The notes beneath the pieces were generated by a model. It made no database searches, was not told the origin of the DNA, and was given only the letters and a program-made list of their open reading frames with translations. Both the position numbers and the translations under genes were made by a program. Positions 25,036 through 62,608 of a DNA stretch of 64,000 nt are shown in pieces. Position 1 is the first letter of the stretch. Each line of letters begins with the position of its first letter. The stretch is from Alphaproteobacteria bacterium (GTDB lineage Bacteria; Pseudomonadota; Alphaproteobacteria; Micropepsales; Micropepsaceae): assembly GCA_021325375.1 (NCBI GenBank), contig JAJPHG010000035.1, positions 1-64,000 of the forward strand, in the 5' to 3' direction.

Positions 25036-25050
25036 CGCTCGGTCACCGTA

Positions 25051-25078: not shown

Positions 25079-25098
25079 TTGACCGCATTCGGCAACCG

Positions 25099-25188: not shown

Positions 25189-25205
25189 GGACGCTGAAGG
25201 ACGCG

Positions 25206-25237
25206 AAAGGGCCGGATCGTCGATCTGGCCCTTTTTT
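25206..25237 (+). terminator. Rho-independent terminator after glnA remnant
   Basis: AAAGGGCCGGATC-gtc-GATCTGGCCCTTT, 13 pairs with one mismatch, followed by six Ts (25232-25237). It probably served the glnA copy whose tail it follows and now also closes the minus-strand gene ending at 25248. Confidence 0.8.
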
Positions 25238-25247
25238 CCTTTTGCGG

Positions 25248-27410: not shown

Positions 27411-28706
27411 ATGTCCTTCCCAGTACAGGTTTCGAAGGCGCTTCGCGTCGCGCCGGCACTCGTGCTGATGCTTGCGGGCGGGCTTGCGGCGAAGGCCAGC
27501 CAGTTGAACGTGTTCTATTCGTTTTGCGCGCAAACGAATTGCACCGACGGCAGAAATCCGACGGGAGGCGTGGTCCGCGATCCCGCAACCGGCAACCTGT
27601 TCGGCACGACGCCGAACGGCGGCCAGACCGGCAATTCCGGGACCGGCTTCGAGGTGATCCCGAAGGGCAAGAAGACAAAGTACGACGTGCTGAACACGTT
27701 CTGCCCGGACGGCAACTGTTCCGACGGCACGATCGAAGGCGGCCTGATCGAGGACGTCAACGGCACGATCTACGGCACGACCGCCACCGGCGAGGGCGCA
27801 AGCAGCGAGGGCATGGCCTTCTCGCTGACGCCCTCGGGCAAGAAATGGAAGTTCAAGACGCTCTACAGCTTCCCGGGCAAAGGCCAGGCCGCGACGAATC
27901 CGATCTATCTCACCTATGCGGGCGCGGACACAGGCGCTCTCTACGACGGCACCTCGCCGCTCTACGGCGTCGCGCAGAAAGACGGCATCGCCAGTGGCGG
28001 CGCGATCTTCGCACTGACGAAGAGCGGCAAGAAGTGGAAAGAGAGCTTGCTCTATAATTTCTGCTCTCAAAGCAATTGCACGGATGGGTTCTTCCCGAAC
28101 CCCGGCCTTGCCATCGACGGCTCCGGAAACATCTACGGCACCACCGGCGCCGGCGGCGCGAACACCAGAGGCACGATCTTCGAGCTTTCGCCGCAAGGCG
28201 GCGGAAGCTGGTCGGAGACGGTTCTCTACAGCTTCTGCTCCGGCTTCGGCTGCCCCGACGGCGCCGATCCGAAAAGCGGCGTCGTGCGCGATGCTTCGGG
28301 AAATCTCTTCGGAAACACCGCGCATGGCGGCGGCGACGGTATCAATCAGGGCACGGTCTACGAGTTCGCCGCGAACTCCCAATACACGGTGCTGCACAGC
28401 TTCTGCCTGGGCTCCTGCACCGACGGGATGAATCCGAATGCACCCTTGCTGCTGGACGGACAGGGCAACCTCTTCGGCACGACCGATTCCGGCGGCACGG
28501 GAATTGAGCCGGGAGGCGTCATATTCGAAATCCACAACGGACAGTTCATCCAGCTCTACAATTTCTGCGTGGACGGCTTCTGCACGGATGGAGAGGAGCC
28601 CTCGCCTTTCGCGCCGTTCGCCATCGACAGCGCAGGCAATCTTTACGGCACGACGGAAGGCGGCGGTGCGCACCGCGCGGGCGAGGTCTTCCAGTTCAAG
28701 CCCTGA
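27411..28706 (+). CDS. Exported GloVer tandem-repeat protein with Cys pairs
   Basis: 431 residues. Signal peptide MSFPVQVSKALRVAPALVLM...AAKA, then seven units of the type VFYSFCAQTNCTDG + GNLFGTTPNGGQ; six of the seven carry a FC(x4-5)C-DG pair. Family: choice-of-anchor/GloVer repeats (TIGR03803). The paired Cys suggest an intra-blade disulfide in an oxidising compartment. The seven-unit count and length fit a beta-propeller. Its stop is 10 bases from the facing histidine kinase. Function unknown. Confidence 0.87.
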   Translation: MSFPVQVSKALRVAPALVLMLAGGLAAKASQLNVFYSFCAQTNCTDGRNPTGGVVRDPATGNLFGTTPNGGQTGNSGTGFEVIPKGKKTKYDVLNTFCPDGNCSDGTIEGGLIEDVNGTIYGTTATGEGASSEGMAFSLTPSGKKWKFKTLYSFPGKGQAATNPIYLTYAGADTGALYDGTSPLYGVAQKDGIASGGAIFALTKSGKKWKESLLYNFCSQSNCTDGFFPNPGLAIDGSGNIYGTTGAGGANTRGTIFELSPQGGGSWSETVLYSFCSGFGCPDGADPKSGVVRDASGNLFGNTAHGGGDGINQGTVYEFAANSQYTVLHSFCLGSCTDGMNPNAPLLLDGQGNLFGTTDSGGTGIEPGGVIFEIHNGQFIQLYNFCVDGFCTDGEEPSPFAPFAIDSAGNLYGTTEGGGAHRAGEVFQFKP

Positions 28707-39073: not shown

Positions 39074-40363
39074 ATGGGCGCGGTCCGCTGCGTTCCGATC
39101 GCACTTGCCGCCTTGGCGGCATTCGCCGCGACGCCGGCCCCGGCCGCGCATCTGTCGACGCTCTATTCCTTCTGCCGCCAAGCCGGCTGCGCCGACGGTT
39201 CCGGGCCGTACTCGGTCGCGCTGACGTCGTCCGGCGACGTCCTGGGAACCACGGTGCAGGGCGGCACGACTCAAAACGGCGTCGTCTATCAGCTGAGTCC
39301 GCCGGTGAGCGGGCGCAACTGGCGCGAGAAGGTCCTCCACGATTTCTGCAGCAAGCCCAACTGCACCGACGGCGACGAGGCGTTCAGCCAGCTCAATCCC
39401 GACGGACAAGGAAACTTCTTCGGCGCCACCGAGGAAGGTGACGGCGACAACGGCATCGTCTTCGAGCTCTCTCCCGACACGGGCCATTCCGGCTGGAACT
39501 TCCGCGCGATCTACAGCTTCTGCTCGCTGGCCAATTGCGCCGACGGCCTGAGGGGCGACGGCGCGATGGTCATCGATACGTCCGGCAACGTCTACGGCAT
39601 CGCCGCCGAGGGCGGCATCGTGGGCAAGGGCGTCGTCTACGAGCTGTCGCCGGTCACTGCGCCCGGACGCAAAGGCTATACGCAGAAGGTGCTCTACGAT
39701 TTCTGTTCGTCCGCGAACTGCGCCGACGGCGCCATTCCGACGAACGGCCTCACCTATGCGGGCGCATCGAGCGGCGCGCCCTATGACGGCACCACCCCGC
39801 TCTTCGGCACGACGAACCGGGGCGGCGCCGTCGACGGCGGCGTCGTGTTCTCGCTCACGCCGATGGAGAACGGGAACTGGAACGAGACCGTCCTGCACGA
39901 TTTCTGCGCGAGCGGCGTCTGCCACGACGGAGAGACCCCGGTCGCCGCGGGCGCGCTCGCCGTCGACGCCTCGGACAACATCTTCGGCGCGACCTATAAC
40001 GGCGGCGACAACGATTCCGGCGTGATCTACGAGGTGAGCTTCTCGAACCGCAAATGGCGCGAGACCACGCTCTACAGCTTCTGCTCGCTGCCGAGCTGCA
40101 CCGACGGCAAGGGCACCGCCAACATGATCCTGGATGCGGCCGGCAACCTATACGGCATGTCGGACGCGGCGCTGTTCCGCCTAGTCCCGGACGGGCGTCA
40201 TTCGACGTTCGAGGTGGTGCACCAGTTCTGCTCGAAGCCGAACTGCACCGATGGCGGCCAGCCCCAGGGCAACGTCGTCATGGACGCGTCCGGCAACCTC
40301 TACGGCGCCACGACCGCGGGCGGCGCGCATGGCGGCGGAACGGTGTTCAAATTGACGCCGTGA
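39074..40363 (+). CDS. Exported GloVer tandem-repeat protein with Cys pairs (tandem pair, first)
   Basis: 429 residues. Signal peptide MGAVRCVPIALAALAAFAATPAPA. Seven units, each LYSFC-x4-NCADG-like, all with a Cys pair, plus GNFFGATEEGDG/GNVYGIAAEGG/GTTNRGG-type cores. Family: GloVer repeats (TIGR03803). It is followed after 34 bases by another GloVer gene in the same direction; both are more similar in layout to each other than to the one at 9447. Possible extracellular beta-propeller; function unknown. Confidence 0.87.
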   Translation: MGAVRCVPIALAALAAFAATPAPAAHLSTLYSFCRQAGCADGSGPYSVALTSSGDVLGTTVQGGTTQNGVVYQLSPPVSGRNWREKVLHDFCSKPNCTDGDEAFSQLNPDGQGNFFGATEEGDGDNGIVFELSPDTGHSGWNFRAIYSFCSLANCADGLRGDGAMVIDTSGNVYGIAAEGGIVGKGVVYELSPVTAPGRKGYTQKVLYDFCSSANCADGAIPTNGLTYAGASSGAPYDGTTPLFGTTNRGGAVDGGVVFSLTPMENGNWNETVLHDFCASGVCHDGETPVAAGALAVDASDNIFGATYNGGDNDSGVIYEVSFSNRKWRETTLYSFCSLPSCTDGKGTANMILDAAGNLYGMSDAALFRLVPDGRHSTFEVVHQFCSKPNCTDGGQPQGNVVMDASGNLYGATTAGGAHGGGTVFKLTP

Positions 40364-40397: not shown

Positions 40398-41729
40398 ATG
40401 AACGGATATCTTTGGACGTTGGCGGCGGCCGCTCTCGCGCTGATGCCCACGGCGGCCTCGGCGTCCACGCTGACGACGCTGCACTCTTTCTGCTCGTCTT
40501 CTCCGCCCGCCTGCACGGACGGGGACACGCCCACCGAAGCCGTGGTCCTGACGCCGCAAGGAGACGTGCTGGGCAGCGTGCTGATGGGAGCGAAACTCGA
40601 CCATGGAGGCGTGTTCGATCTGCGCCGGAAGCCGGGCGGCGGCAAGTGGCACGAAAGCCTCGCCTACAGCTTCTGCCGCAAGAAGCACTGCAAGGACGGC
40701 AACGGCCTGTTCAGCGGCTTGACCGCGGACGCGTCCGGCAACGTCTATGGCGCCACGCAAGACGGCGGCCATCTCGACAGAGGCGTGGTCTTCAAGCTGA
40801 CGCCCGACGGCAGCGGCGGCTGGCGCTACAGCACGATCTACCGCTTCTGCCAGCTCAAGAGATGCCTCGACGGGCGCGGCGGCGACGGCACGCTGGTCTT
40901 CGATACGCAAGGCAATATCTACGGCACGACCTATGGCGGCGGCAGCGCGGGAAAGGGCGTGGCGTACGAACTGTCCCCGTCGCAGCGCGACCACGAATGG
41001 ACGCAGAAGGTCCTCTACAATTTCTGCTCGCAGCCGAATTGCGCCGACGGAAACCAGCCGCTGATCGGGCTGACCTATGTGGGTGCCGCGTCGGGCACGC
41101 CCTATGACGGCCTCTCGCCCCTCTACGGAACGACGTCGTTCGGCGGCAACGGCTCCGCTCCCGGCTCGGGCGTCGTGTTCTCCCTCACGCCGGGCGGCGG
41201 CACCTGGCAGGAGAGCGTGCTCTATGCCTTCTGCCCGGCGGGCGATCCATGCGCGGATGGAAGCGGTCCCGCGCAGGCAGGCCCATTGAGCTTCGACGGC
41301 CAGGGAAACATCTATGGCGCTACGATGTCGGGCGGCACCGGTCAGCTCGACGGCAAGGGCGTGCTCTTCGAGCTGAGCCGCAAAGGCGGCACGTGGAAGG
41401 AAAGCGTCCTGCACACCTTCTGCGTCGATACCTGCGACGACGGCGGCTTGCCTGCGGCCAATCCCATCATGGACGCGACCGGAAACCTGCTCGGGACCGC
41501 CGAGATCGGCGGCGCGCATCAGGACGGCGTCATCTACAAGCTCTCCACCGGCCGCAAGCCGGCGCTGACGACGCTCTACGACTTTTGCGCGCTGGCGAAC
41601 TGCGCCGACGGGCGAGGCCCGGGATCGGTCCTTCAGATGGACGCGGACGGCGACCTCTTCGGCACGACCCAGCAGGGAGGGACGAGTTCGAGCGATCCCG
41701 CGGGCACGGCGTTCGAGTTCACGCCCTAG
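40398..41729 (+). CDS. Exported GloVer tandem-repeat protein with Cys pairs (tandem pair, second)
   Basis: 443 residues. Signal peptide MNGYLWTLAAAALALMPTAASA. Seven units, each with a LHSFC...C-DG Cys pair (spacing between the Cys 3 to 6 residues) and a GNVYGATQDGG-like core. It is the second of a tandem pair. The same seven-unit pattern occurs in four separate genes of this window. Confidence 0.87.
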   Translation: MNGYLWTLAAAALALMPTAASASTLTTLHSFCSSSPPACTDGDTPTEAVVLTPQGDVLGSVLMGAKLDHGGVFDLRRKPGGGKWHESLAYSFCRKKHCKDGNGLFSGLTADASGNVYGATQDGGHLDRGVVFKLTPDGSGGWRYSTIYRFCQLKRCLDGRGGDGTLVFDTQGNIYGTTYGGGSAGKGVAYELSPSQRDHEWTQKVLYNFCSQPNCADGNQPLIGLTYVGAASGTPYDGLSPLYGTTSFGGNGSAPGSGVVFSLTPGGGTWQESVLYAFCPAGDPCADGSGPAQAGPLSFDGQGNIYGATMSGGTGQLDGKGVLFELSRKGGTWKESVLHTFCVDTCDDGGLPAANPIMDATGNLLGTAEIGGAHQDGVIYKLSTGRKPALTTLYDFCALANCADGRGPGSVLQMDADGDLFGTTQQGGTSSSDPAGTAFEFTP

Positions 41730-43999: not shown

Positions 44000-45061
44000 A
44001 TGGACTTCATGCAGGCCTACCGCCAAGACCGCGAACAAGCGCTTGCGAAGACCGCGCTCGCCCTGATGGGCGATGTGGGCGTGGTGCCTTCGCCGGACAA
44101 TTACGAGCTGTTCTACACCTACGCTTCCGGCGCCAATCCGCAGGTCGGGCAGATCATCGACAAGATGATCTCCGAGCGGCGGCCGTTCACCAGCAACGTG
44201 CTCGACGATCTGCGCGGCCGCTGCCTGTCGAGCGAGCGCACGACGCAGGCCCTCGACAATGCGAGCAATCAGGTCGCAGCAACCTTGAACGCCCTGCTCG
44301 GGAAATTGGAGAGCGCCGGGCGCGACGCGGGCGACTACGGCCGCGCGCTGTCGCGCGCCAGCGGCGAGCTCGACGCCGCCCATTCGCCCGACGAGATCCG
44401 CCAGTTCGTCGACACCCTCGTCGCCGCCACACGCACCATGGAGGCGCGCACGCAGACGCTGGAAGACGAGCTGCACCGCTCCTCCGAGCAGGTCAACGTG
44501 CTGAAGAGCCAGCTCGAGGACGTGCGCAAGGAAAGCCTGACCGACTCGCTCACCGGCGTCGCCAACCGCAAGGCCTTCGACACCGAGTTGCTCGCGGCCA
44601 CAGCCGAGACGCAGGAGAACGGCGAGACCGTCGCGCTGGTGATGATCGACATCGACCATTTCAAGAGCTTCAACGACACCTGGGGCCACCAGACGGGCGA
44701 CCAGGTGCTGCGTCTTGTCGCCCAATGCATGTCGGAGAACGTCAAGGGCCGCGACACGGTGGCCCGCTTCGGCGGCGAGGAGTTCGCCATCATCCTGCGC
44801 CGCACGACGCTTCAGAACGCGACCAGGCTCGCCGACCAGATCCGCGCCTATGTGGAGAGCAAGAAGCTCATCAAGCGCTCGACCGGCGACGTGCTGGGGA
44901 CGATCACGGTCTCCGCCGGCGTCGCGCGCCTGGGCGAGCGCGACACCCCCGCCTCGCTCATCCAGCGCGCCGACAGCTGCCTCTACCGGGCGAAAAACAC
45001 CGGCCGCAACCGCGTCGTGGGCGAGGGCGAATCCGATCTATCCGAGATGGACGCGGCGTAA
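44000..45061 (+). CDS. Diguanylate cyclase (GGDEF protein)
   Basis: 353 residues. An N-terminal helical sensor-like domain of about 180 residues (no membrane helix) leads through a coiled coil (LEDELHRSSEQVNVLKSQLEDV) to a GGDEF domain: DSLTGVANRKAFDTELL, VMIDIDHFKSFNDTWGHQTGD, and the active site ARFGGEEFAIIL near residue 260. It should make cyclic di-GMP. The inhibitory I-site position reads KGRD rather than RxxD, so feedback inhibition may be absent. Start is ATG at 44000. Preceded by a palindromic repeat and followed by the M13 genes. Confidence 0.93.
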   Translation: MDFMQAYRQDREQALAKTALALMGDVGVVPSPDNYELFYTYASGANPQVGQIIDKMISERRPFTSNVLDDLRGRCLSSERTTQALDNASNQVAATLNALLGKLESAGRDAGDYGRALSRASGELDAAHSPDEIRQFVDTLVAATRTMEARTQTLEDELHRSSEQVNVLKSQLEDVRKESLTDSLTGVANRKAFDTELLAATAETQENGETVALVMIDIDHFKSFNDTWGHQTGDQVLRLVAQCMSENVKGRDTVARFGGEEFAIILRRTTLQNATRLADQIRAYVESKKLIKRSTGDVLGTITVSAGVARLGERDTPASLIQRADSCLYRAKNTGRNRVVGEGESDLSEMDAA

Positions 45062-45210
45062 CCTCCGCAGACAGAAGATTTCGCGTTTCGCACGCCGCCC
45101 TTTCCACAAAAACGGTTAACCCCAAACCCCAGGCAATAGTTCGCTCGCGCTTGCGTGATTTGCGTAGCTGGCCCTCAATGCCCAAATCGGGGTGGCTTCG
45201 GGAGACATAT

Positions 45211-47241
45211 ATGCGCATCAAACTGCTCGCGCTCGCGGGCTTGGCCGCGACCATGGTCGCCGCACAGGGGGACACGCCACGTCCCGCCTTCGGAAGCTGG
45301 GGCGTCGACCTCGCGACCATAGACAAGAGCGTCAAGCCGGGCGACGACTTCTTCCGCTACGTGAACGGCAACTGGCTCAAGACCGCCACCATCCCGCCGG
45401 ACCGCACCTCCACGGGCTCGTTCCAGGACCTGCAGATCCTGAGCGAGCAGCGCATGAAAGCCATCGTCGCCGAGCTGGAGGCGCGCAAGGAAAGCGAGCT
45501 CGACCCCGAGGCGAAGCAGCTGCGCGACCTCTACGACGCCTTCACCGACACCAAGGCGATCGACGCCGCCGGCCTCAAGCCGGCGCAGAAGGACCTCGAC
45601 GGCTTCGCGAAGATCAAGACGCTCGATGGCGTCGCGGAAGCGATGGGCCGTCCCGACGGCGGCACCGACAGCCTGTTCGCCGACCGCATCACGCCCGACC
45701 CGAAGAACTCCAACGTCTATGTCGTGACGCTGACCCAGAACGGGCTCGGCATGCCCGAGCGCGACTATTATCTGCGCGACGACAAGAACCTCGCCGCCGC
45801 GCGCGAGGCCTACAGGACCTATCTCACCACGATGCTGACGCTCGCGGCCGCCAAGGATGCCGCTTCGCGCGCGGGTGCGGTGTACGACCTCGAAGCCGCG
45901 ATGGCGAAGGTCGAATGGCCCGCCGCCAACCGCCGCGACGCGGACAAGACCTACAACCCGATGACGCCCACTGAGCTGGAAAAGTTCGCACCCGGCTTCC
46001 CGTGGCGCGCATTCCTGAAGGCGCAGGGCATCGCCGGCGAGCGCAAGCTGATCGTGCGCGAGAACAGCGCTTTCCCCGACATGGCCAAGATATTCGCCGC
46101 GACTCCCATCGCCGTGTGGCGCGATTGGCTGACCGTGCACTACCTGCACACCATGTCGCCCTATCTGCCCACCTCGTTCGATGACGCGGACTTCGCGTTC
46201 TACGGCAAGGTGCTGGGTGGGCAAGAGCAGAAGCTGCCGCGCGAGACGCGCGCGGTGCGCCTGCTCGACAACGTGCTCGGCCACCCGCTCGGCAAGCTTT
46301 ACGTCGCGCGCTACTTCCCGCCCTCGTCCAAGGCCAAGGTCGAGGCGCTGGTCGGCAACCTGCTCAAGGCCTACGACACCGACATCCGCGTCATTCCTTG
46401 GATGACGGACGCGACGCGCAAGAAGGCGCTCGACAAGCTGCACGCCTTCACGCCGCATATCGGCTATCCCGACAAGTGGCGCGACTATTCGGGCCTCGTC
46501 ATCAAGCGCGATGACCTCGTGGGCGACAGGGAACGCTCCGAAAAGTTCGAATGGGATTATCGTCTTTCGCGCATCGACCGGCCGGTCGACCGCAGCGAAT
46601 GGATCATGACGCCGCCGACGATCAACGCCTACTACACCCAATCGTTCAACTCGATCTTCTTCCCGGCCGCGATCCTGCAGCCGCCCTTCTTCGACCCCAA
46701 TGCCGACGACGCGGTGAACTATGGCGGCATCGGCGCGGTCATCGGCCACGAGATCGGCCACGGCTTCGACGACCAGGGCTCGAAATACGACGGCGCGGGA
46801 ATTCTCCAGAGCTGGTGGACCGACGAGGACCGCAAGGCGTTCGAGACGCGCACCTCATCGCTCGGCGCGCAGTTCGATTCCTACGAAGGGCTGCCGGGCC
46901 TGCACGTCAACGGCAAGCTGACCATGGGCGAGAACATCGGCGATTTGTCGGGCATCAACATCGCGCTCCAGGCCTATCACATCTCGCTGGAGGGCAAGCC
47001 GTCGCCGGTGCTCGACGGCTGGACCGGGGACCAGCGCTTCTTCCTGTCCTACGGCCAGATCTGGCGCAGCAAATACCGCGACGGCGCCCTGCGCCAGCAG
47101 ATCATCTCCAACCCGCACGCCCCGGCCGAGTTCCGCGTCATCGGCGCCACCCGCAACACCGACGCGTGGTACAAGGCCTTCGATGTGAAGCCGGGCGACA
47201 AGTACTACTTGCCGCCGGAGCAGCGCGTACACATCTGGTAG
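45211..47241 (+). CDS. M13-family zinc metallopeptidase (neprilysin/PepO-like), copy 1
   Basis: 676 residues. Signal peptide MRIKLLALAGLAATMVAAQG. Substrate site NAYYTQSFNSIFFPAAILQPPFF; zinc site VIGHEIGHGFDDQGSKYD (HExxH near 513); third ligand MGENIGDLSG; C-terminal GDQRFFLSYGQIWR. M13 enzymes cut small peptides outside the cytoplasm. It is the first of three tandem copies. The start is ATG at 45211 after GGGAG. The conserved length is the same as in the other two. Confidence 0.95.
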   Translation: MRIKLLALAGLAATMVAAQGDTPRPAFGSWGVDLATIDKSVKPGDDFFRYVNGNWLKTATIPPDRTSTGSFQDLQILSEQRMKAIVAELEARKESELDPEAKQLRDLYDAFTDTKAIDAAGLKPAQKDLDGFAKIKTLDGVAEAMGRPDGGTDSLFADRITPDPKNSNVYVVTLTQNGLGMPERDYYLRDDKNLAAAREAYRTYLTTMLTLAAAKDAASRAGAVYDLEAAMAKVEWPAANRRDADKTYNPMTPTELEKFAPGFPWRAFLKAQGIAGERKLIVRENSAFPDMAKIFAATPIAVWRDWLTVHYLHTMSPYLPTSFDDADFAFYGKVLGGQEQKLPRETRAVRLLDNVLGHPLGKLYVARYFPPSSKAKVEALVGNLLKAYDTDIRVIPWMTDATRKKALDKLHAFTPHIGYPDKWRDYSGLVIKRDDLVGDRERSEKFEWDYRLSRIDRPVDRSEWIMTPPTINAYYTQSFNSIFFPAAILQPPFFDPNADDAVNYGGIGAVIGHEIGHGFDDQGSKYDGAGILQSWWTDEDRKAFETRTSSLGAQFDSYEGLPGLHVNGKLTMGENIGDLSGINIALQAYHISLEGKPSPVLDGWTGDQRFFLSYGQIWRSKYRDGALRQQIISNPHAPAEFRVIGATRNTDAWYKAFDVKPGDKYYLPPEQRVHIW

Positions 47242-47251
47242 TATTCCGAAC

Positions 47252-47277
47252 CCGCGCGGCTTCGCGCCGCCGCGCGG
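47252..47277 (+). other. Hairpin between M13 copies 1 and 2
   Basis: CCGCGCGGC-ttcgcgcc-GCCGCGCGG, a perfect 9-pair stem shortly after the copy-1 stop; followed by CTTTCG with only three Ts, so it may reduce rather than stop transcription into copy 2. Confidence 0.5.
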
Positions 47278-47320
47278 CTTTCGTCCGACCTCTGGCGCGT
47301 TCGTTCTTAGGAGACTTTTG

Positions 47321-49357
47321 ATGCGAAGGACTTTGGTGGCGCTTCTCGGGGCCGGTGCCGTGATCACGGCGGCCTATGGCGACGCGCCCAAGACGGAATA
47401 CGGTACATGGGGTTTCGACACCGCGGCGATGGACAAGACCGTCAAGCCCGGCGACGACTTCTTCCTGTATGCCAACGGCAATTGGTACAAGACCGCGCAG
47501 ATCCCACCCGATCGCGCCTCGACCGGCTCGTTCCAGAACCTGCGCATCCTGAGCGAGAAGCGCATGCAGGAGATCGCGGCCTCGCTTGACGCCAAGCCCT
47601 ACGACCAGCTCAGCGCCGAAGAGAAGAAGCTGCGCGACCTCTACGACGCCTATGTCGACCAGACGGCCCTCGACGCCAAAGGAATCGGCGCCGCCAAGCC
47701 CGATCTCGACAGGATCGCGCACCTCAAGACGCGCGAGGATGTCGCCGCGATGCTCGGCGATCCGCGCCTGAACCTCGACTCGCCGATCAATTTCGGCATC
47801 GGCATCAACGACAAGAACCCGAACGCCTATTCGATCAATCTGGGCCAGGGCGGGTTGGGCATGCCCGACCGCGACTATTACCTGCGCGACGACGCCGAGC
47901 TCGCCAAGACGCGCGACGCCTACAAGACGCACATGGCCGACATGTTCAAGATGGCCGGCATCGCCGACGGCGAGAAGCGCGCGCAGGCGGTGTACGACCT
48001 CGAGCACAAGATCGCCGACGCCGAGTGGGCCAACGCCGACCGCCGCGACGAGGACAAGGTCTACAATCCGATGACCTATGCCGAGCTGAAGGCGATGGCG
48101 CCCCAGATGCCGTGGGACGCGCTCTTCAGCCGCAGCGGGCTCAAGATGGACGCCAACCGCCAGGTGATCGTGGCCGAGAAGTCGGCGTTCCCCAAGCTCG
48201 CCGCGATCTTCGCCGACACGCCGGTCGAAACCTGGCGCGACTACATGACGGTGCACTATCTGCACACCTACGCCGCCTATCTGCCGAAATCGTTCGACGA
48301 CGCGGACTTCGCGTTCTACGGCACGACGCTGCAGGGCAATTCGCAGCAGCTTCCGCGCAGCGCGCGCGCGGCGCATCTGGTCGACGGCGCGATGGGCGAG
48401 GCGCTGGGCAAGCTCTACGTCGCCAAGTACTTCCCGCCGGAAGCCAAGGCCAAGGCCGTCGAGCTGGTGCACAACCTGCTCAAGGCCTATGAGGCCGACA
48501 TCCAGACGCTCGACTGGATGAGCCCCGCGACGAAAGCGAAAGCAGAAGAGAAGATCCACAAGTTCACGATCAAGATCGGCTATCCCGACCATTGGCGCGA
48601 CTATTCGGCGCTGACGGTCAAGCGCGACGACCTCATCGGCGACATCCAGCGCGCCAACGAGTTCGAATGGAACCGCCAGTCGCGGCGCATCGACCAGCCG
48701 ACCGACAAGACCGAATGGGGCATGTCGCCGCCGACGGTCAACGCCTACAACAATTCGCAGTGGAACGAGATCGTGTTCCCGGCGGCGATCATGCAGCCGC
48801 CGTTCTTCGACCCCAATGCCGACGACGCGGTGAACTATGGCGGCATCGGTGCCGTGATCGGGCATGAGATCAGCCACGGATTCGACGACCAGGGCTCGAA
48901 GTTCGATTCCGACGGCAGCTTCAACAATTGGTGGACGCCGGAAGATCTTAAAGTCTTCCAGTCCAAGACCACCGCGCTCGGCAAGCAGTATGACAGTTAC
49001 GAGCCCCTGCCCGGCATCCACGTCAACGGCGCCTTCACGATGGGCGAGAACGTCGCCGACAACGCCGGCATCGCCATAGCCCTTAAGGCCTATCACATCT
49101 CGCTTCAGGGCAAGCCCGCGCCGGTGCTCGACGGCTTCACCGGCGATCAGCGCTTCTATCTGTCGTTCGGGCAGATCTGGCGCGGCAAGCTGCGCGACGG
49201 TGCGCTGCGCTCGCAGCTTCTGTCCAACGAGCACAGCCCGCCGATGCAGCGCGCGATCGGCGCCACCCGCAACCAGAACGAATGGTATGCGGCGTTCGAC
49301 GTGAAGCCCGGCGACAAATACTACTTGGCCCCGGACCAGCGCGTGCATCTCTGGTAG
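47321..49357 (+). CDS. M13-family zinc metallopeptidase, copy 2
   Basis: 678 residues, similar in layout to copies 1 and 3. Signal peptide MRRTLVALLGAGAVITAAYG, then MDKTVKPGDDFFLYANGNW; NAYNNSQWNEIVFPAAIMQPP; zinc site VIGHEISHGFDDQGSKFD near 514; MGENVADNAGIAIAL. The start is ATG at 47321 after TTAGGAGA. Its stop is followed by a strong terminator, which separates it from copy 3. Confidence 0.95.
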   Translation: MRRTLVALLGAGAVITAAYGDAPKTEYGTWGFDTAAMDKTVKPGDDFFLYANGNWYKTAQIPPDRASTGSFQNLRILSEKRMQEIAASLDAKPYDQLSAEEKKLRDLYDAYVDQTALDAKGIGAAKPDLDRIAHLKTREDVAAMLGDPRLNLDSPINFGIGINDKNPNAYSINLGQGGLGMPDRDYYLRDDAELAKTRDAYKTHMADMFKMAGIADGEKRAQAVYDLEHKIADAEWANADRRDEDKVYNPMTYAELKAMAPQMPWDALFSRSGLKMDANRQVIVAEKSAFPKLAAIFADTPVETWRDYMTVHYLHTYAAYLPKSFDDADFAFYGTTLQGNSQQLPRSARAAHLVDGAMGEALGKLYVAKYFPPEAKAKAVELVHNLLKAYEADIQTLDWMSPATKAKAEEKIHKFTIKIGYPDHWRDYSALTVKRDDLIGDIQRANEFEWNRQSRRIDQPTDKTEWGMSPPTVNAYNNSQWNEIVFPAAIMQPPFFDPNADDAVNYGGIGAVIGHEISHGFDDQGSKFDSDGSFNNWWTPEDLKVFQSKTTALGKQYDSYEPLPGIHVNGAFTMGENVADNAGIAIALKAYHISLQGKPAPVLDGFTGDQRFYLSFGQIWRGKLRDGALRSQLLSNEHSPPMQRAIGATRNQNEWYAAFDVKPGDKYYLAPDQRVHLW

Positions 49358-49364
49358 GATCATC

Positions 49365-49397
49365 GGGCGCCGCGCGAAAACGCGGCGCCCTTTTTTT
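49365..49397 (+). terminator. Rho-independent terminator after M13 copy 2
   Basis: GGGCGCCGCG-cgaaaa-CGCGGCGCCC, a perfect 10-pair stem, followed by seven Ts (49391-49397). Copy 3 starts 23 bases later, so it probably has its own promoter or depends on read-through. Confidence 0.92.
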
Positions 49398-49419
49398 CTT
49401 TCTCTCGGGGGAATTTCAG

Positions 49420-51450
49420 ATGAAGACGTTTTCCTATGCCGCGCTGCTGTGCGCCGCCGCGACCTTGGCCTATGCCGCGAGCCCGGCCGTCAAGCCCTGG
49501 GGCGTGGAGCTTTCCTATATCGACAAGAGCGTCGCGCCGGGAGACGACTTCTTCACCTACGCCAACAATGGCTGGCTCAAGACCGCAATCATCCCGCCGG
49601 AACGCTCCTTCGCCGGCGTGAACCTGGAGCTCGACAAGCAGAACGAGGAGCGCCTCAAGGCGATCGTCGCCGAGCTGCACACGCGCCGGGGCATCACCGA
49701 GGAGGAAGCCAAGCTGCGCGACCTCTACGACGCCTTCACCGACCGGGCGGCGATCGAGGCGGCGGGGCTGAGCCATGCCGACGCGGACCTCAAGGCGATC
49801 GCGTCCTTGAACGATGCCGCCGACGTCGCGCGCGCGATGGGCAATCCCAGGATGGGCCTCGACGGGCCGTTCGGCATCTATCTCGGCGTCGACGACAAGC
49901 ACCCGACGAACTACTCGGTCAATCTCTACCAGTCCGGTCTCGGCATGCCCGACCGCGACTACTATCTGCGCGACGACAAGGAGCTCGCCAACACGCGCGC
50001 GGCCTACAAGAAATATCTCTCGCAGATGCTGGGCTTCGCGGGCGTCAAGGACGCGGACGCCCGCGCGGACGCGATCTACAAGCTCGAGCACGATCTCGCA
50101 GACGCGTCGTGGCCGGCGCAGGACCGCCGCGACGCGGACAAGACCTACAACCCGATGAAGATCGCCGACCTTGCCAAGATGGCGCCGGATTTTCCGTGGG
50201 TCGAGTTCTTCGCGGCCTCCGGCGTTCCCGCTTCTTCGCCCAGGGGCGAGCGCATGGTGATCGTCGCCGAGCGCTCGGCGTTTCCGAAGCTCGCCGCCGT
50301 GTTCAAAGCCACGCCCATCGCGGTGTGGCGCGACTATCTGACGGTGCGCTACCTGCACACCTATTCGGCCTACCTGCCCAAGAAGATCGACGACGCCGAT
50401 TTCGCGTTCTACGGCGCGACGCTCCAGGGCAAGACCGCGCAGCTCGACCGCGCCACGCGCGGCGTCGACCTGCTCGACACCGAGATGGGCGAGGCGCTGG
50501 GCAAGCTCTATGCCGAAAAATACTTCCCGGCCGAGGCGAAGATGAAAGCCGACGCGCTGGTGCACAACCTGCTCAAGGCCTATGCGAGCGACATCAAGAC
50601 ACTCACCTGGATGACGCCCGCGACGCGGCAGAAGGCGCTGGAGAAGCTCTCCGCCTACATGCTTAAAGTCGGCTACCCCGACCATTGGCGCGACTATTCG
50701 GCGCTCAGGGTCGCGCGCGACGACCTCGTGGGCGACGTCAAGAACGCGACGGAGTTCGAATGGAAGCGCGAGCTGGCGCGCATCGACAATCCCGTCGACC
50801 GCACCGAATGGGGCATGTCGGTTCCGACCAACAACGCCTATTACAATCCGACGCTGAACGAGATCGTGTTCCCGGCCGGCATCCTGCAGCCGCCGTTCTT
50901 CGACGCGAACGCCGACGACGCGGTGAACTACGGCGAGATCGGCGCCACGATCGGGCACGAGATCAGCCACGGCTTCGACGACCAGGGCTCGAAATACGAC
51001 GGCACCGGCACGCTCAAGGATTGGTGGACGCCGCAAGACCGCAAGAACTTCGACGCGCGCACCACGGCGTTCGCCGCCCAATATGACGAGTACGAGCCGC
51101 TGCCCGGTATCCACATCAACGGCAAGCTGACGCTCGGCGAGAACATCGCCGATCTCGCGGGGCTGGTGATCGCCTACAAGGCCTATCACCTCTCGCTCGG
51201 CGGCAAGCCCGCGCCGGTGCTCGACGGCTACACGGGCGACCAGCGCTTCTACATCGCCTATTCGCAGAGTTGGCGCGAGAAGGACCGCGACGGGCGCCTG
51301 CGCGAGCGCCTGCTCTCGAACCCGCACAGTCCCGCCGCCTGGCGCGTCAACGGCGTGGTGCGCAACGACGACGGCTGGTACGCCGCGTTCAAGATCAAGC
51401 CGGCGGACAAGTTCTACCTGGCGCCGGACAAGCGCGTGCGGCTGTGGTAA
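49420..51450 (+). CDS. M13-family zinc metallopeptidase, copy 3
   Basis: 676 residues. Signal peptide MKTFSYAALLCAAATLAYA. NNAYYNPTLNEIVFPAGILQPP, the zinc site TIGHEISHGFDDQGSKYDG near 514, LGENIADLAGLVIAYKA, and GDQRFYIAYSQSWR. Start ATG at 49420, after GGGGGAATTTC. As with copies 1 and 2 all zinc ligands are present, so all three appear active. Confidence 0.95.
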   Translation: MKTFSYAALLCAAATLAYAASPAVKPWGVELSYIDKSVAPGDDFFTYANNGWLKTAIIPPERSFAGVNLELDKQNEERLKAIVAELHTRRGITEEEAKLRDLYDAFTDRAAIEAAGLSHADADLKAIASLNDAADVARAMGNPRMGLDGPFGIYLGVDDKHPTNYSVNLYQSGLGMPDRDYYLRDDKELANTRAAYKKYLSQMLGFAGVKDADARADAIYKLEHDLADASWPAQDRRDADKTYNPMKIADLAKMAPDFPWVEFFAASGVPASSPRGERMVIVAERSAFPKLAAVFKATPIAVWRDYLTVRYLHTYSAYLPKKIDDADFAFYGATLQGKTAQLDRATRGVDLLDTEMGEALGKLYAEKYFPAEAKMKADALVHNLLKAYASDIKTLTWMTPATRQKALEKLSAYMLKVGYPDHWRDYSALRVARDDLVGDVKNATEFEWKRELARIDNPVDRTEWGMSVPTNNAYYNPTLNEIVFPAGILQPPFFDANADDAVNYGEIGATIGHEISHGFDDQGSKYDGTGTLKDWWTPQDRKNFDARTTAFAAQYDEYEPLPGIHINGKLTLGENIADLAGLVIAYKAYHLSLGGKPAPVLDGYTGDQRFYIAYSQSWREKDRDGRLRERLLSNPHSPAAWRVNGVVRNDDGWYAAFKIKPADKFYLAPDKRVRLW

Positions 51451-51463
51451 ACTCAAACACACC

Positions 51464-51602
51464 TGTCATCCCCGGCGAGCATCGCCGTCAGGCGATGCGA
51501 GGTTAAGGGGACCCAGGCGGAAAGATCGAGACAAGTCTATCCACCTGGGTCCCCTTGACCTCAGATCGCTCGCGTCGCGAACGATCTTCGCCGGGGATGA
51601 CA
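51464..51602. repeat. Palindromic intergenic repeat, family B copy 2
   Basis: Outer arms TGTCATCCCCGGCGA and GCCGGGGATGACA (ending 51602), inner arms GGGGACCCAGG and CCTGGGTCCCC. The second copy of the family at 20773-20902. Lies between convergent genes, M13 copy 3 and the tfoX-like gene. Confidence 0.82.
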
Positions 51603-51608
51603 GTGTGC

Positions 51609-51950
51609 TTACGGCTTCTTCTTCGTCTTCTTCCGCGCCGCCGGCGTGGCCTGCGCGACCTCGAGCGCCGCGCGCGCCCACTGCGCCAGCTCCTCCGGAT
51701 CGTCGTACAGCCGGTCGGGCAGCGAGAACCACGTCGTCACCACCGTCTCGCCGCCCTTGTCGAAGGTGAAGGGCTTGCGCTTCTCGGCTTTGAACGCCTT
51801 GCGCGTCTCTTCGTCGGTCTTGAAGTAGATGACGTCGTCGAAGACCATGCCGATCATCGTGTCGCCGGCATAGATGCCGTCGCCGCCGAAGAAGCGCTTG
51901 ACCGTGATCCGCCCGAACTGCGCGAACAGATCGTCGAAGCGGCTGCTCAA
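51609..51950 (-). CDS. TfoX N-terminal domain protein
   Basis: 113 residues with the TfoX/Sxy N-terminal pattern (ITVKRFFGGDGIYAGDTMIGM, then VVTTWFSLPDRLYDD) and a Lys-rich C-terminal tail. This domain is best known from the competence regulator Sxy of gammaproteobacteria, but standalone small versions are widespread with unknown role. Its start (51950) overlaps the stop of sufA by four bases, so it is translated with the suf operon as its last gene. Confidence 0.85.
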   Translation of the reverse strand: MSSRFDDLFAQFGRITVKRFFGGDGIYAGDTMIGMVFDDVIYFKTDEETRKAFKAEKRKPFTFDKGGETVVTTWFSLPDRLYDDPEELAQWARAALEVAQATPAARKKTKKKP

Positions 51951-52336
51951 GCGGGCTTCGCCGGCGTGATCGAGACGCTTTCGCCGCAGCCGCAGGCGGC
52001 CGTCTGGTTCGGGTTGTTGAAGACGAAGCGCGCGCCAAGCTTCTCGCGCACGAAATCCATCTCGGTGCCGATCAGGAACAGGATCGCCTTGGGATCGATG
52101 AAGATCTTCACGCCCTTGTCCTCGACCACCTCGTCGAGCGGCTTCACGTCTTCGGCGTAGTCCATCGTGTAGCTCATGCCGGCGCAGCCGCCATTGGTGA
52201 CGCCGACGCGCACGCCGCGATACTTGCCGTCGGCGCCTTCCATGATCTCGCGGATGCGCGCAGCCGCGGCGTCGCTGAGGCGCACCGCTTTGGGGCGCTC
52301 GCGCCGGGGCTTGGTTGGGGTCGCTGTCGTTTCCAT
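51947..52336 (-). CDS. sufA: Iron-sulfur assembly A-type carrier (SufA/HesB/IscA family)
   Basis: 129 residues. The three A-type Cys are present: C51 (TNGGCAGMSY) and C115/C117 (ACGCGES). VKIFIDPKAILFLIGTEMDFV is the core. Carries an Fe-S cluster between scaffold and target apoproteins. ATG at 52336 overlaps the sufT stop (ATGA). Penultimate gene of the operon. Confidence 0.95.
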   Translation of the reverse strand: METTATPTKPRRERPKAVRLSDAAAARIREIMEGADGKYRGVRVGVTNGGCAGMSYTMDYAEDVKPLDEVVEDKGVKIFIDPKAILFLIGTEMDFVREKLGARFVFNNPNQTAACGCGESVSITPAKPA

Positions 52337-53144: not shown

Positions 53145-54382
53145 CAACCCAATATCTTTCGCGCCTTTTGCAGGCCGTCGATCAGCGCGTCAACCTCGCC
53201 GCGCGTGTTGTAGAGCGCGAAGGAAGCACGCGTCGTGGAGACGACGCCGAAGCGCTCCATCAGAGGCTGCGCGCAGTGATGCCCCGCGCGCACCGCGATG
53301 CCCTCGCGGTCGAGGATGGTCGCCAGGTCGTGCGCATGCATGCCTTCGGTCTCGAAGGAAAGGATCGCACCCTTGCCCGGCGCGTCGCCGACGACGCGCA
53401 GCCAGTTGAACGCGCGCACGCGCTCGCGGGCATGGGCGAGCAGGTCGTGCTCATGCGCCTTCACCGCGGCGCGGTCGAAAGCCGAGAGATAGTCGAGCGC
53501 GGCGGCGAAGCCCACGCTTTCGATGATCGCGGGCGTGCCCGCCTCAAACCGCGCAGGGGGATCGGCATAGGTGACGATTTCGCGCGAGACCTCGCGGATC
53601 ATCTCGCCGCCGCCGTTGAACGGGCGCATGGCCTTGAGATGCGCGCGCTTGCCGTAGAGCGCGCCGATGCCCGTCGGTCCATAGAGCTTGTGCCCCGTGA
53701 CGCAGTAGAAATCGACGTCCAGGTCGCGCACATCCACGATCTCGTGCACCGCGCCCTGGCAGCCGTCGGCGAGGACGGGCACGCCCTTGGCATGGGCGCG
53801 CGCGACGATCTCTTTGAGCGGCGACACCGTGCCCAGCACGTTCGACATGTGCGAGACCGCGACGAGCCTGGTCTTCGGTCCGATCGCCGCGTCGACCGCC
53901 TCGGCGTCCAGCGAGCCGTCGTCGCCGACGTCGACCCAGCGCAGCACGGCGCCCTGGCGCTCGCGCAGGAAATGCCACGGCACGATGTTGGAATGATGCT
54001 CCATCGTGCTGAGCACGATCTCATCGCCCGGCTGGATGCGCGGGCTCAGATGCGAATAGGCGACGAGGTTCATCGCCTCGGTGCCGCCTTTGGTGAAGAC
54101 GATCTCGTCCGCATGCCCCGCGTTCAGGAACCGGCGCACGGTCTCGCGCGCCGCCTCATAGCGTTCGGTCGCGGCGGCGGAGAGGAAATGCACGCCGCGA
54201 TGGACGTTGGCGTATTCGCTGGAGGCGAAATCGCGCATCGCGTCGAGAACCTGGCGCGGCTTCTGCGCCGACGCCGCGCTGTCGAGATAGACGAGCGGCC
54301 TGCCGTACACCTCGCGCGACAGGATTTCGAAATCGGCGCGCGCCGATGCGGGATCGAAGATGGTCTTGGCGGGCGCGTTCAT
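53144..54382 (-). CDS. sufS: Cysteine desulfurase SufS
   Basis: 412 residues, fold type I PLP enzyme. HHSNIVPWHFLRERQGAVLRW, VSHMSNVLGTVSPL, and the PLP Lys in CVTGHKLYGPTGIGALYG. The catalytic Cys is in RAGHHCAQPLMERFG. It supplies sulfane sulfur for clusters. Its start (54382) overlaps the sufD stop. A separate IscS-like desulfurase occurs earlier in the same operon (58101-59147). Confidence 0.96.
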   Translation of the reverse strand: MNAPAKTIFDPASARADFEILSREVYGRPLVYLDSAASAQKPRQVLDAMRDFASSEYANVHRGVHFLSAAATERYEAARETVRRFLNAGHADEIVFTKGGTEAMNLVAYSHLSPRIQPGDEIVLSTMEHHSNIVPWHFLRERQGAVLRWVDVGDDGSLDAEAVDAAIGPKTRLVAVSHMSNVLGTVSPLKEIVARAHAKGVPVLADGCQGAVHEIVDVRDLDVDFYCVTGHKLYGPTGIGALYGKRAHLKAMRPFNGGGEMIREVSREIVTYADPPARFEAGTPAIIESVGFAAALDYLSAFDRAAVKAHEHDLLAHARERVRAFNWLRVVGDAPGKGAILSFETEGMHAHDLATILDREGIAVRAGHHCAQPLMERFGVVSTTRASFALYNTRGEVDALIDGLQKARKILG

Positions 54383-55452
54383 AGAAGCGCCTCCACGGGC
54401 TGCCAGAGGAATTCGCGCGTCTTCTCATCCTCTACGCCGCCGAGCGCCTCTTCCAGGAATGCACGGATCAGGAGCTTGCGCGCCTGCGTTTCCGGGATTC
54501 CGCGCGAGCGCAGATAGAACAGCGACTCCGCGTCCAGGTCGCCCACCGCCGCGCCATGCGCGCATTTGACGTCGTCGGCGAAGATCTCCAGCTCGGGCTT
54601 GAGGTCGGCTTCGGCGCCGATATCGAGCAGAAGCGCCTTCGCGGTCTGGCGGCTGTCGGACCCGTCCGCGCCTTCGCGCACCGTGATCTTGCCCTGATAG
54701 ACCGCGCGCGACTTGCCGCCCGCGACGTGCTTGAACAATTGCGTGCTCGCCGTGTCACCGACCGCGTGGTCGATATGCGTGGTGACGTCGGAATGCGCGT
54801 TGCCGCGCAGCATCGTCATCCCGGAGAGATGCGCTTGCGCGCGCTCGCCCTCAAGCGCGACATGGAGATCGAGCCGCGAAAGCTCGCTGCCGAGATTGGC
54901 GCAGGCGAGGCGGTAAGCACCGCCCCGCGCCACCGTCACGCCGCTGTCCTCGATCCGCACGCCCGTGCCCGGCTCGGCGAGGCGGGCATGTGCGACCCGC
55001 GCGTCCTTGCCGATCACGAACTCGCTGCCGATGTTCTGGAAGCCGTCGCCGGATAGCGTCTGCGTGTAGCGCAACGCCGCGCCGTCCTCGACGACGATCA
55101 GCACGCGGGCCTGGCCCTGTGTGAAGCGCACGCGCGCCTCGCCGGATTTCTTGACGCGCAGCGCAAAGCCCGCCTTGGCAAATGCGAGCGACGCCTCGCC
55201 CATGACGCCGTCGGGCGCGGTGCCGAGATGCGCCTTCACCCAATCGGGCGCCTCGCCGGAGGCAAAGTCGAACACCTCCACGCCATCGGATTCGAGCGAC
55301 CATTGCGCCGGCCCCGCCGACGCGATCGCATCCGCATCGACCGCGGAACGCAGGTCGGAATATTTCCACGCCTCGACGCGGCGATGCGGCACGCCCGCGG
55401 CGCGGAATGCGTCCGCCGCCTTCATGCGCCGCGTGTCGAGCCAGGCGTTCAT
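54379..55452 (-). CDS. sufD: Fe-S cluster assembly protein SufD
   Basis: 357 residues. It has [17 protein letters not shown] near the N-terminus, the SufBD core ([21 protein letters not shown], then [23 protein letters not shown]) and [25 protein letters not shown] followed by [14 protein letters not shown], all SufD landmarks. Forms the SufBCD scaffold with SufC and SufB. The ATG at 55452 overlaps the sufC stop. Confidence 0.94.
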
Positions 55453-56178
55453 GCCGCGTAGCCCTTTGCTTCGAGTTCGTGGGCGAGCTCCGGTCCGCCC
55501 TCGCGCACGATGCGCCCGCCCGAGAGCACATGGATGCGGTCGGGCACGATGTAGTCGAGCAGGCGCTGGTAATGCGTGATCACCAGCATCGCGCGGTCGG
55601 GCGCGCGCAACGCGTTGACGCCCTCGGCCACGAGCTTCAGCGCGTCGATGTCGAGGCCGGAATCGGTCTCGTCCAGGATCGCGAGCTTGGGCTCGAAGAG
55701 CGACATTTGCAGGATCTCCAGCCGCTTCTTCTCGCCGCCGGAGAAGCCGACATTGAGAGCGCGCTTGCATCTCTTCCGGCACCTTGAGCGCGGCCGCCTT
55801 GGCGCGCACGCGCTTGAGCACGCTCATCGCGTCCAGCTCCGTCTCGCCGCGCGCGCGGCGTTGCGCGTTGAGCGCGGTCTTGAGGAACGTCAGTGTCGTG
55901 ACGCCCGGGATCTCGACCGGATACTGCATCGCCAGGAACACGCCCTTCGCGGCGCGCACTTCGGGCGCGAGCGCGTTCAGATCCTCGCCATTCCACGAGA
56001 TGGAGCCCGACGTGATCTCATAGCCCGCGCGGCCCGCGAGCACGTAAGACAGCGTCGATTTGCCGGAGCCGTTCGGCCCCATGATCGCGTGCACCTCGCC
56101 CGGCTTCACGGCAAGGCTCAGGCCTTTGAGGATTTCCTTGCCCCCGACCTCGGCGTGCAGGTCTTTGATCTCAAGCAT
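55449..56178 (-). CDS. sufC: Fe-S assembly ATPase SufC (frameshifted)
   Basis: An ABC-type ATPase: [19 protein letters not shown], Walker [10 protein letters not shown], signature region [16 protein letters not shown] (partly reconstructed), Walker [19 protein letters not shown], and [20 protein letters not shown]. The frame is interrupted between 55766 and 55767: inserting two bases to give atg-ctg-aag-cgc restores the consensus. The upstream part ends EEMQ, and the downstream frame picks up with [10 protein letters not shown]. Total about 243 codons. ATG at 56178 lies within the last codons of the cupin gene. Confidence 0.9.
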
Positions 56179-56652
56179 CCTCGCCATCCCAATAATCGGC
56201 GGGCGTCAGACGGCCGCGCACCTTGTATGTCGCGTCGGTGTACGCGATCCCCTTCGCGCCGATGCGCATGCCGATCTTGCCGGAGTCCGGATACTCGACG
56301 AGATCGGACGCCGGATTGTTCGAAAGCCCCAGATAGCGAAGCTCGCTCTTGCCCGTGTTGAGGATCTGATGCGCCTCGCCGCCGGCGGGGGCGCCCAGGC
56401 AATCGCCCGCGCGCACGGGCATGCGCTTGTCGCCGATGCGATACTCGCCCTCGCCCGAGACGATGAAGAACATCTCGTCGCAGCCGTGATGGCGGTGATA
56501 GGGGAACGCCGTCTTGCCCGGCGGCACGATGTGCAGCATGCAGCCGAGCACGGTCAGCCCCAGCGCCTCGCCGACCTCGCCGCGCGTGACCGAGAACCGC
56601 GCGCCGTGCGACTCTGTCTCCAGCGGCAAGTCCGCGATGTTGACGACGGGCT

Positions 56653-61360: not shown

Positions 61361-62608
61361 ATGACCGCCGTGTCCGATTTCAAGTCCCCGTTCCTGCGCG
61401 ATTTCGTGGCGCGCGGGCATTACTACGACTGCACCGACCGCGAGGCGCTCGATGCGCTGTTCCTGAAAGAGCGCGTCACGGCCTATATCGGCTTCGACTG
61501 CACCGCGCCCAGCCTGCATGTCGGCCACGCGATGCAGATCATGACCCTGCGCCGGCTGCAGCAGGCCGGCCATCGCCCCATCGTGGTGATGGGTGGGGGG
61601 ACGACCAAGGTCGGCGATCCCTCGTTCCGCAACGAGGCGCGGCCGCTGCTCAGCGAGGAGACCATCGAGACGAACAAGCAGGCGATCCTGAAATCGTTCA
61701 GGAACTTCCTCACCTTCGGCGACGGGCCGTCCGACGCGATCATGGTCGACAATGCGCAGTGGCTCGACAAGCTCGAATACGTCCCGTTCCTGCGCGAGAT
61801 CGGGCGGCACTTCTCGATCAACCGCATGCTGACGATGGAGAGCGTCAAGGCCAAGATCGACAACGACCTGCCGTTCTCGTTCCTCGAGTTCAACTATTCG
61901 ATCATGCAGGCCTACGATTTCGTCGAGCTCTACCGGCGCTACGGCTGCCGCCTGCAGTCCTCGGGCTCGGACCAGTGGGGCAACATCGTCAGCGGCATCG
62001 ATCTCGGACGTCGCGTCGAGAACATCCAGCTCTTCGGCCTGACCACGCCGCTGATCACCACCTCGTCGGGCGCCAAGATGGGCAAGACCGCGCAGGGCGC
62101 GGTGTGGCTGAACCCCGACATGCGCAGCCCTTACGACTACTGGCAGTTCTGGCGCAACACCGAGGACGCCGATGTCGGCCGCTTCCTGCGCATCTTCACC
62201 GACCTGCCCGAGGGCGAAATCGCGCGGCTCGAAAAGCTTAAAGGCGCGGAGTTGAACGACGCCAAGAAGATCCTCGCCACCGAAGCCACCGCCATCTGCC
62301 ACGGCCGCGCCGTCGCGGACGAAGCGGCGGAGACGTCGCGGCGCACGTTCGAGGAAGGCGCGATGGCGACAGGGCTGCCGAGCTTCAGCCTGAAATTGCC
62401 CGACGGCATCCTGAACCTCGCCGTCGCCACCGGGCTGGCGTCGTCGAACTCGGAGGCGCGCAAGCTCATCGCCAACAACGGCCTGCGCCTGAACGACGTC
62501 GCGGTGAGCGATCCCAAGATGCAGGTCGACGCGAGCGCGCTCAACCCCGACGGCGTGCTCAAGCTCTCCAGCGGCAAGAAGAAGCATGTGCTGGTGAGGC
62601 CGGCGTAG
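61361..62608 (+). CDS. tyrS: Tyrosyl-tRNA synthetase
   Basis: 415 residues, class I synthetase. HIGH-like motif SLHVGHAMQ (residues 51-58), then GGTTKVGDPSF, QLQSSGSDQWGN-like segment (RLQSSGSDQWGNIVSG) for tyrosine binding, and a KMSKS variant KMGKT (near 240). The C-terminal S4 domain has SNSEARKLIANNGLRLND. Charges tRNA-Tyr with tyrosine. Confidence 0.97.
   Translation: MTAVSDFKSPFLRDFVARGHYYDCTDREALDALFLKERVTAYIGFDCTAPSLHVGHAMQIMTLRRLQQAGHRPIVVMGGGTTKVGDPSFRNEARPLLSEETIETNKQAILKSFRNFLTFGDGPSDAIMVDNAQWLDKLEYVPFLREIGRHFSINRMLTMESVKAKIDNDLPFSFLEFNYSIMQAYDFVELYRRYGCRLQSSGSDQWGNIVSGIDLGRRVENIQLFGLTTPLITTSSGAKMGKTAQGAVWLNPDMRSPYDYWQFWRNTEDADVGRFLRIFTDLPEGEIARLEKLKGAELNDAKKILATEATAICHGRAVADEAAETSRRTFEEGAMATGLPSFSLKLPDGILNLAVATGLASSNSEARKLIANNGLRLNDVAVSDPKMQVDASALNPDGVLKLSSGKKKHVLVRPA

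Follow-up and report, generated by a model that had tools for sequence, protein, structure and literature searches.

A tandem array of three M13 metallopeptidases of old, within-genus origin, one with a partly polar S1' pocket

The three M13 genes and their surroundings

A stretch of 64,000 nucleotides from an alphaproteobacterium of the family Micropepsaceae (assembly GCA_021325375.1, contig JAJPHG010000035.1, positions 1 to 64,000, forward strand), hereafter the window, contains three genes for M13 metallopeptidases in direct succession. These genes, which we call A (P0001, 676 aa; 45211..47241), B (P0002, 678 aa; 47321..49357), and C (P0003, 676 aa; 49420..51450), are consecutive complete open reading frames, all on the plus strand, with gaps of 79 nt (A-B) and 62 nt (B-C). 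Their succession and lengths had been given in a preliminary description of this DNA and were confirmed by the open reading frame positions and Pfam profile searches. Both M13 profiles, PF05649 (E-values of 8.9e-114, 7.5e-120, and 4e-111 for A, B, and C, respectively) and PF01431 (1.2e-67, 3.3e-66, and 2.6e-69), are matched from the first to the last position, and full-profile matches at such E-values exclude chance. The HExxH, NAYY/NAYN, and zinc-ligand elements that had been reported were all found, as HEIGH, HEISH, and HEISH, as NAYY, NAYN, and NAYY, and, around the third zinc ligand, as ENIGD, ENVAD, and ENIAD; with the downstream His and Arg also intact, each protein possesses the full set of sequence features of peptidase family M13 (both domains, HExxH, ExxxD, NAxx, and the downstream His/Arg). 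All three fell far short of the cut-off of 1000 bits of the NCBIfam PepO equivalog NF052391 (318.6, 337.2, and 295.2 bits).

The N-termini of A, B, and C are hydrophobic and signal-peptide-like, with plausible cleavage sites as judged by eye, and no lipobox was found in them by pattern or by reading the sequence. Across the genus, where further copies of these types and of a type D occur (see below), the lipobox pattern is present in 16 of 43 D copies whose start was found (e.g., L036) and in 1 of 9 A, 1 of 9 B, and 1 of 10 C copies; given these differences, membrane anchoring may vary between copies. The array is bordered upstream by a GGDEF (diguanylate cyclase-like) gene (44000..45061, plus strand) and downstream by a TfoX N-domain gene (51609..51950, minus strand), which is followed by suf genes, also on the minus strand; the interval between these borders is referred to as the slot. 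The genome (G000; 4.77 Mb, 45 contigs) has five M13 genes in total, namely A, B, C, and two on contig C38.

Origin of the copies and variation of the slot across the genus

The genus was sampled with 69 genomes, 65 of which gave an M13 match, and a first tree comprised 117 M13 proteins (114 from the genus and 3 from one outgroup genome), five short M13 fragments having been dropped. The three window copies fall within one clade of 88 rows, supported at 100 in the Shimodaira-Hasegawa-like approximate likelihood ratio test (SH-aLRT), whose subclades are A (10 rows), B (11), C (13), and E (3), with a remainder of 51 rows termed D. Two further clades of the genus, N (19 rows) and O (7 rows), include the two genes on C38, and 20 more M13 regions of the genus, which lie beyond the tree and outside the pocket counts given below, were classed by best BLAST hit only, all of them as N or O. 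For a larger tree of 215 rows, 60 added regions were hand-picked along score-ranked class and phylum match lists, with adjacent pairs included deliberately, so the sample is broad and not random; 59 of them gave 67 proteins, L279 gave no row, and three L079 rows were dropped as duplicates of G331. In this tree the 88-row clade contains members of the genus only, and the other 127 rows, 101 of them from outside the genus, fall elsewhere. The copies are therefore not placed in distant clades of separate origin, the outcome that the preliminary description had named as speaking against tandem growth, and in the sequences sampled the duplications are confined to the genus.

Over their aligned parts, the window copies are 60.8% (A-B), 59.5% (A-C), and 60.9% (B-C) identical, and each is closer to its partner in the genome G331 (77% for A, 83% for B, and 76% for C). 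Considering that identity between paralogues is lower than between orthologues, the duplications predate these species. The A, B, and C clades hold 10, 11, and 13 rows, each row of a clade coming from a different genome; the triplet is conserved and of old date rather than recent. Of the proposal of recent tandem growth made earlier, growth within the lineage thus stands and its recency does not. A recent tandem duplication in this strain, with which the adjacency, common strand, and nearly equal lengths of the genes would agree, is hardly credible and was rejected on the identity comparison and on the spread of each clade over many genomes. Gene conversion among the window copies was also looked for, and no near-identical tract appeared in 60-column blocks.

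The slot has the same layout across the genus, a GGDEF gene, one to three M13 genes, and TfoX/suf, and its content differs by species. At least 18 of the 69 genomes have two or three M13 genes in a row, the 18 arrays being seven triplets and eleven pairs, and many other genomes have a single copy. The earlier statement that M13 genes usually occur singly or scattered holds for most genomes, but adjacent pairs are not rare, being present on the same strand in at least 6 of 92 other M13-bearing genomes among the matches listed. In 14 of the 18 arrays GGDEF lies upstream and TfoX or suf downstream (suf without TfoX in G316 and G317); within the sequence examined, only the upstream flank is seen in G004 and G334, G023 has just the downstream one, and G322 shows no flank on either side. 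The order is A-B-C in the window genome and G331, D-C-A in G022, G041, G343, G344, and G345, B-A in G004 (where the array ends at the contig end) and G023, B-C in G326 and G336, D-A in G340, D-C in G322 and G334, and D-D in G010, G316, G317, and G342. Apart from the A-B-C arrays, the other 12 mixed-type arrays begin with B or D and have A, where present, in last place, and the window order is a circular shift of this usual (B/D)-C-A. It probably arose when A moved from the end of an ancestral (B/D)-C-A array to the front, or when the array was doubled and parts of it were then deleted. Single-copy slots hold a lone D or B in many genomes and a lone C in G229, and no match to the slot flanks was found in the sequence examined for a subclade of single D genes (22 rows). 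Since one slot occurs with one, two, or three copies over 69 genomes, it offers a natural series in which the assembly and trimming of a peptidase set may be followed.

None of the 11 B carriers also has D (one short fragment from G338 is unplaced), and the extra M13 genes of B carriers, at first outside the set, belong to clades N and O. As B and D never co-occur, B may be the orthologue of D in part of the genus. A tree based on glutamine synthetase and trigger factor does not reject a single clade of B carriers (approximately unbiased test, p-AU 0.12), whereas adding TyrRS does (p-AU 0.011); the marker sets thus disagree on B as a lineage separate from D. RpoB was not used as a marker, its match being present in 23 of 30 genomes and absent from G000. 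The seven genomes without an rpoB match thus include one, G000, that is rated 100% complete. TyrRS (window positions 61361-62608) groups the genomes differently from the other two markers, and its identity between the window and G331 is 72%, compared with 94% for glutamine synthetase and 84% for trigger factor, suggesting that the TyrRS gene may have been replaced or exchanged within the genus. This conflict implies that genes move or recombine in the genus, which is a point in favour of the copies having been gathered by separate horizontal transfers. We nevertheless regard such an origin as very unlikely, given that all 88 rows of the clade come from the genus, that none of the other 127 rows lies inside it, and that the arrays have their flanks in common.

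Hairpins or a terminator had also been described between the genes, and both gaps indeed hold such an element. The A-B gap contains a GC-rich hairpin with a weak T tail (47252..47277, plus strand; stem read by hand, whole-gap fold of -27.4 kcal/mol), and B and C are separated by a clear terminator-like hairpin of 10 GC pairs with a T tract (49365..49390, plus strand), which has by far the longest stem and is conserved. In 10 of 11 arrays with a B/D-to-C junction, a GC stem with a T-rich tail starts 4-13 nt past the stop codon, leaving some 15-30 nt (by eye) between the T tract and the start of C; at least two sequence types of this hairpin exist, which the sequence alignment puts out of register with each other. 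The C-to-A junctions of the five D-C-A arrays (23-31 nt) are free of hairpins (fold energies between 0 and -2.9 kcal/mol). According to a script, which did not locate the start of the second gene at 5 of 25 junctions, terminator-like sites follow 8 of 9 A, 7 of 11 B, 13 of 48 D, and 1 of 11 C genes. No sigma-70 promoter was found within 44800-51800 (0.9 expected by chance), and Rfam yielded nothing at the gathering threshold across 44900-52000. The pattern of a hairpin before C and none between C and A suggests that C, and A where it comes after C, may rely on read-through or on a promoter within the preceding gene.

The S1' pocket of copy C and its recurrence

Pocket positions are numbered here after neprilysin (106, 558, 563, 579, 580, 692, and 693), which we take, by their spacing from the zinc ligands, to correspond to the seven S1' residues of the bacterial M13 peptidase PepS. 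According to excerpts of the respective papers, to which our citations of PMC4701951, PMC2259306, and PMC4908401 are confined throughout, the seven PepS residues are all hydrophobic (F88, I506, F511, A527, V528, I635, and W636; PMC4701951), and the S1' pocket of M13 enzymes is relatively invariant and hydrophobic, with cleavage before bulky hydrophobic residues (PMC2259306; PMC4701951). The sites were listed before counting, the difference of C near position 106 having already been noticed by eye. A (F71, I488, F493, A509, V510, I617, and W618) and B have the canonical pocket, hydrophobic at all seven positions, and C does not: in P0003 the equivalents of F106, V580, and V692 are N68, T510, and S617, which give a partly polar pocket, and C also has N471. 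Throughout clade C, position 106 is N (13/13), 580 is T (12/12), and 692 is S (12/12; one row is without sequence there), and position 563 is Y in 10 of 13 rows and F in the window copy. Position 106 is F in 10/10 A, 11/11 B, and 50/51 D rows, and wherever A, B, and D rows have a residue, 580 is always V and 692 always V or I.

Of 328 class-conserved columns, only five have a fixed switch of chemical class in clade C. Three of these five belong to the S1' pocket with its seven columns (hypergeometric P 5.9e-5), and a fourth is the residue before NAYY; A has three class switches and B one, none of them in the four S1' columns that qualified for these clades. The specialised peptide use proposed in the preliminary description therefore finds real support for C, through its S1' pocket, and no S1' switch was seen in A or B (four columns tested). 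An AlphaFold model of C (mean pLDDT 93.5) has a neprilysin-like fold, with TM-scores of 0.93 to Zmp1 (3zuk; 44% identity) and 0.89 to neprilysin (1dmt), and the alignment with Zmp1 places F, V, and I at the three switched positions. Alternatively, C might have been repurposed, as a binding protein or decoy with a decayed pocket, or have only weak activity; its changed pocket residues and the hairpin before it, which could mean low expression, would agree with this. Such a role is improbable, as all 12 C rows that have sequence at these sites retain the zinc histidines, the catalytic Glu, the third-ligand Glu, and the equivalents of Asp650, His711, and Arg717.

Similar pockets are found in other lineages. 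Six rows with a gap or X at pocket columns being unscored, 209 of the 215 proteins divide into 138 canonical pockets, 24 with the triad of a non-F residue at 106, T580, and S692, and 47 others; among the 150 rows with F106, S692 occurs in none and T580 in one. Outside the genus the triad is present in 9 of 101 rows. The same class provides five, four with D106 and one with N106; G706, from another class of the same phylum, has a triad with S106 in the second member of an adjacent pair, and triads with G106 come from two Nocardia wallacei strains, again in the second of two adjacent genes, and from one Verrucomicrobia record. Pockets that lack F106 and the full triad are as common outside the genus (13 of 101 rows). 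In a FastTree phylogeny for which the pocket columns had been masked, 8 changes are required to explain the triad, and well-supported branches force 7 of these. Fisher's test on the new sample (P 4e-7 for S692 versus F106) ignores relatedness, and we relied on independent pairs, in which loss of F106 goes with S692 in about 7 of 16 and never in the opposite direction (median p 0.016, range 0.004-0.125), and T580 goes with S692 at a median p of 0.031. Coupling of the pocket sites is thus likely, not overwhelming. Odd pockets showed no clear preference for tandem arrays in a hand count outside the genus (non-F106 in 7 of 27 array rows vs 15 of 74 others).

The two remaining M13 genes of the window genome (L053 on C38, at 59313 on the minus strand in clade O and at 67326 on the plus strand in clade N) lie 8 kb apart on opposite strands, and the same O/N pair in the same arrangement is present in G013 (C6) and G331 (C9). 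At positions 106/580/692 the C38 genes have G/T/S (O) and R/I/A (N). It is possible, and we put this forward tentatively, that bacterial M13 enzymes repeatedly evolve a polar-pocket subclass in which positions 106, 580, and 692 switch together, and that some genomes keep it beside canonical copies as complementary cutters. If this holds, the five M13 enzymes of the genome would span four S1' types, namely F/V/I (A and B), N/T/S (C), G/T/S, and R/I/A, and a recurring coupled switch of three residues would be a simple code for predicting M13 enzymes that break the rule of a hydrophobic P1' residue.

The recurrence also bears on the possibility that the array serves dosage, with three enzymes doing the same job, copies raising output, and the pocket changes of C being tolerated drift. 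Subsets of the array are freely lost across the genus, and the choice of P1' in PepS is loose (PMC4701951), both of which are compatible with dosage. On the other hand, the seven S1' columns account for three of the five radical fixed switches of C, the combination has evolved again elsewhere in the family, and A and B carry the canonical residues and show no such switch in the four S1' columns testable for them; we consider dosage rather unlikely.

Predicted function and comparison with known M13 enzymes

Taken together, the array probably represents a set of complementary exported oligopeptidases in one variable slot, with a specificity of C that is predicted from sequence. One chromosomal slot of this genus holds one to three M13 genes derived from old within-genus duplications, whose products are predicted to be exported zinc oligopeptidases acting on short peptides outside the cytoplasm. 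As in other M13 enzymes, cleavage by A and B would take place before bulky hydrophobic residues, and C would cleave before small or polar ones, so that the set would cover more peptide bonds, and the hairpin may keep the level of C lower or dependent on read-through. Nutrition is the role given for bacterial extracellular peptidases such as PepS (PMC4701951).

Several observations weigh against this interpretation. PepS, with a fully hydrophobic S1' pocket, still cuts some bonds with a non-hydrophobic P1' residue (PMC4701951), so pocket chemistry forecasts specificity only loosely, and the pocket of C is only partly polar, as I558, F563 (in the window copy), A579, and W693 are retained. Whereas 106 and 692 are strongly coupled, the association of F106 with T580 in independent pairs has a median p of 0.0625 and is only marginal given relatedness. 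Copies have been lost frequently, as the many single-copy genomes indicate, and no single copy is thus essential genus-wide. The B/D-to-C junction of G334 is the one without a hairpin, and the terminator-like sites in 7 kb number 7 compared with 5.4 expected by chance, a count that is uninformative. Clade A splits when only the first 120 columns are used (4 changes vs 1), a weak N-terminal signal hinting at a possible exchange between copies, and the marker sets disagree on the species tree.

Some further features of the window were noted. A VapBC-like pair on the minus strand (region 23954-25263; PIN domain at 24449-24880, VapB antitoxin domain in 24835-25263) is flanked by the 3' end of the glutamine synthetase gene and by a 94% identical 81-nt copy of that end (25111-25191), as if it had been inserted at glnA. 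In clpX (4445-5709) the zinc finger and the AAA domain of ClpX are encoded in two different frames, and in sufC (54379-56187) the ABC domain of SufC stops short, its frame continuing into SufD; since both are housekeeping genes, these frameshift-like features are likely sequencing or assembly errors. Two direct neighbours (39074-40363 and 40398-41729) match TIGR03803 and are tandem-repeat proteins of the GloVer type, and two more window frames resemble such proteins, one of them (27411-28706) by the look of its sequence.

Searches of the open-access literature, in two cases covering only the top of a long result list, yielded no paper on tandem M13 arrays in bacteria or on a polar S1' pocket in a bacterial M13 enzyme. 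The closest solved fold to C is that of Zmp1, the M13 enzyme of Mycobacterium tuberculosis (3zuk), which keeps F, V, and I where C has switched, and PepO of Porphyromonas gingivalis and Tannerella forsythia (9fma, 9kn2, and 9eyg) has a bacterial M13 fold with 36-37% identity to C. Human neprilysin, which has a membrane anchor, resembles C in its fold (TM 0.89) and catalytic set. Unlike that of C, its S1' pocket is hydrophobic, with Phe106 and Trp693 (PMC4908401). PepS of Shewanella sp. E525-6 is a bacterial extracellular M13 peptidase whose catalytic residues are those of the array enzymes, and A and B correspond to it at the seven S1' positions, whereas C differs at three of the seven; in contrast to the array, it was studied as one enzyme (PMC4701951). 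The pocket of C does not fit the account of S1' as a relatively invariant hydrophobic site, for which the exception named in the excerpt is honeybee Ame7 (PMC2259306). Ame7 is an M13 protein reported to have a more polar S1' pocket, as in C, but it is an insect protein with Glu for Ile, Tyr for Phe, and Ser for Val, not the N/T/S set of C (PMC2259306).

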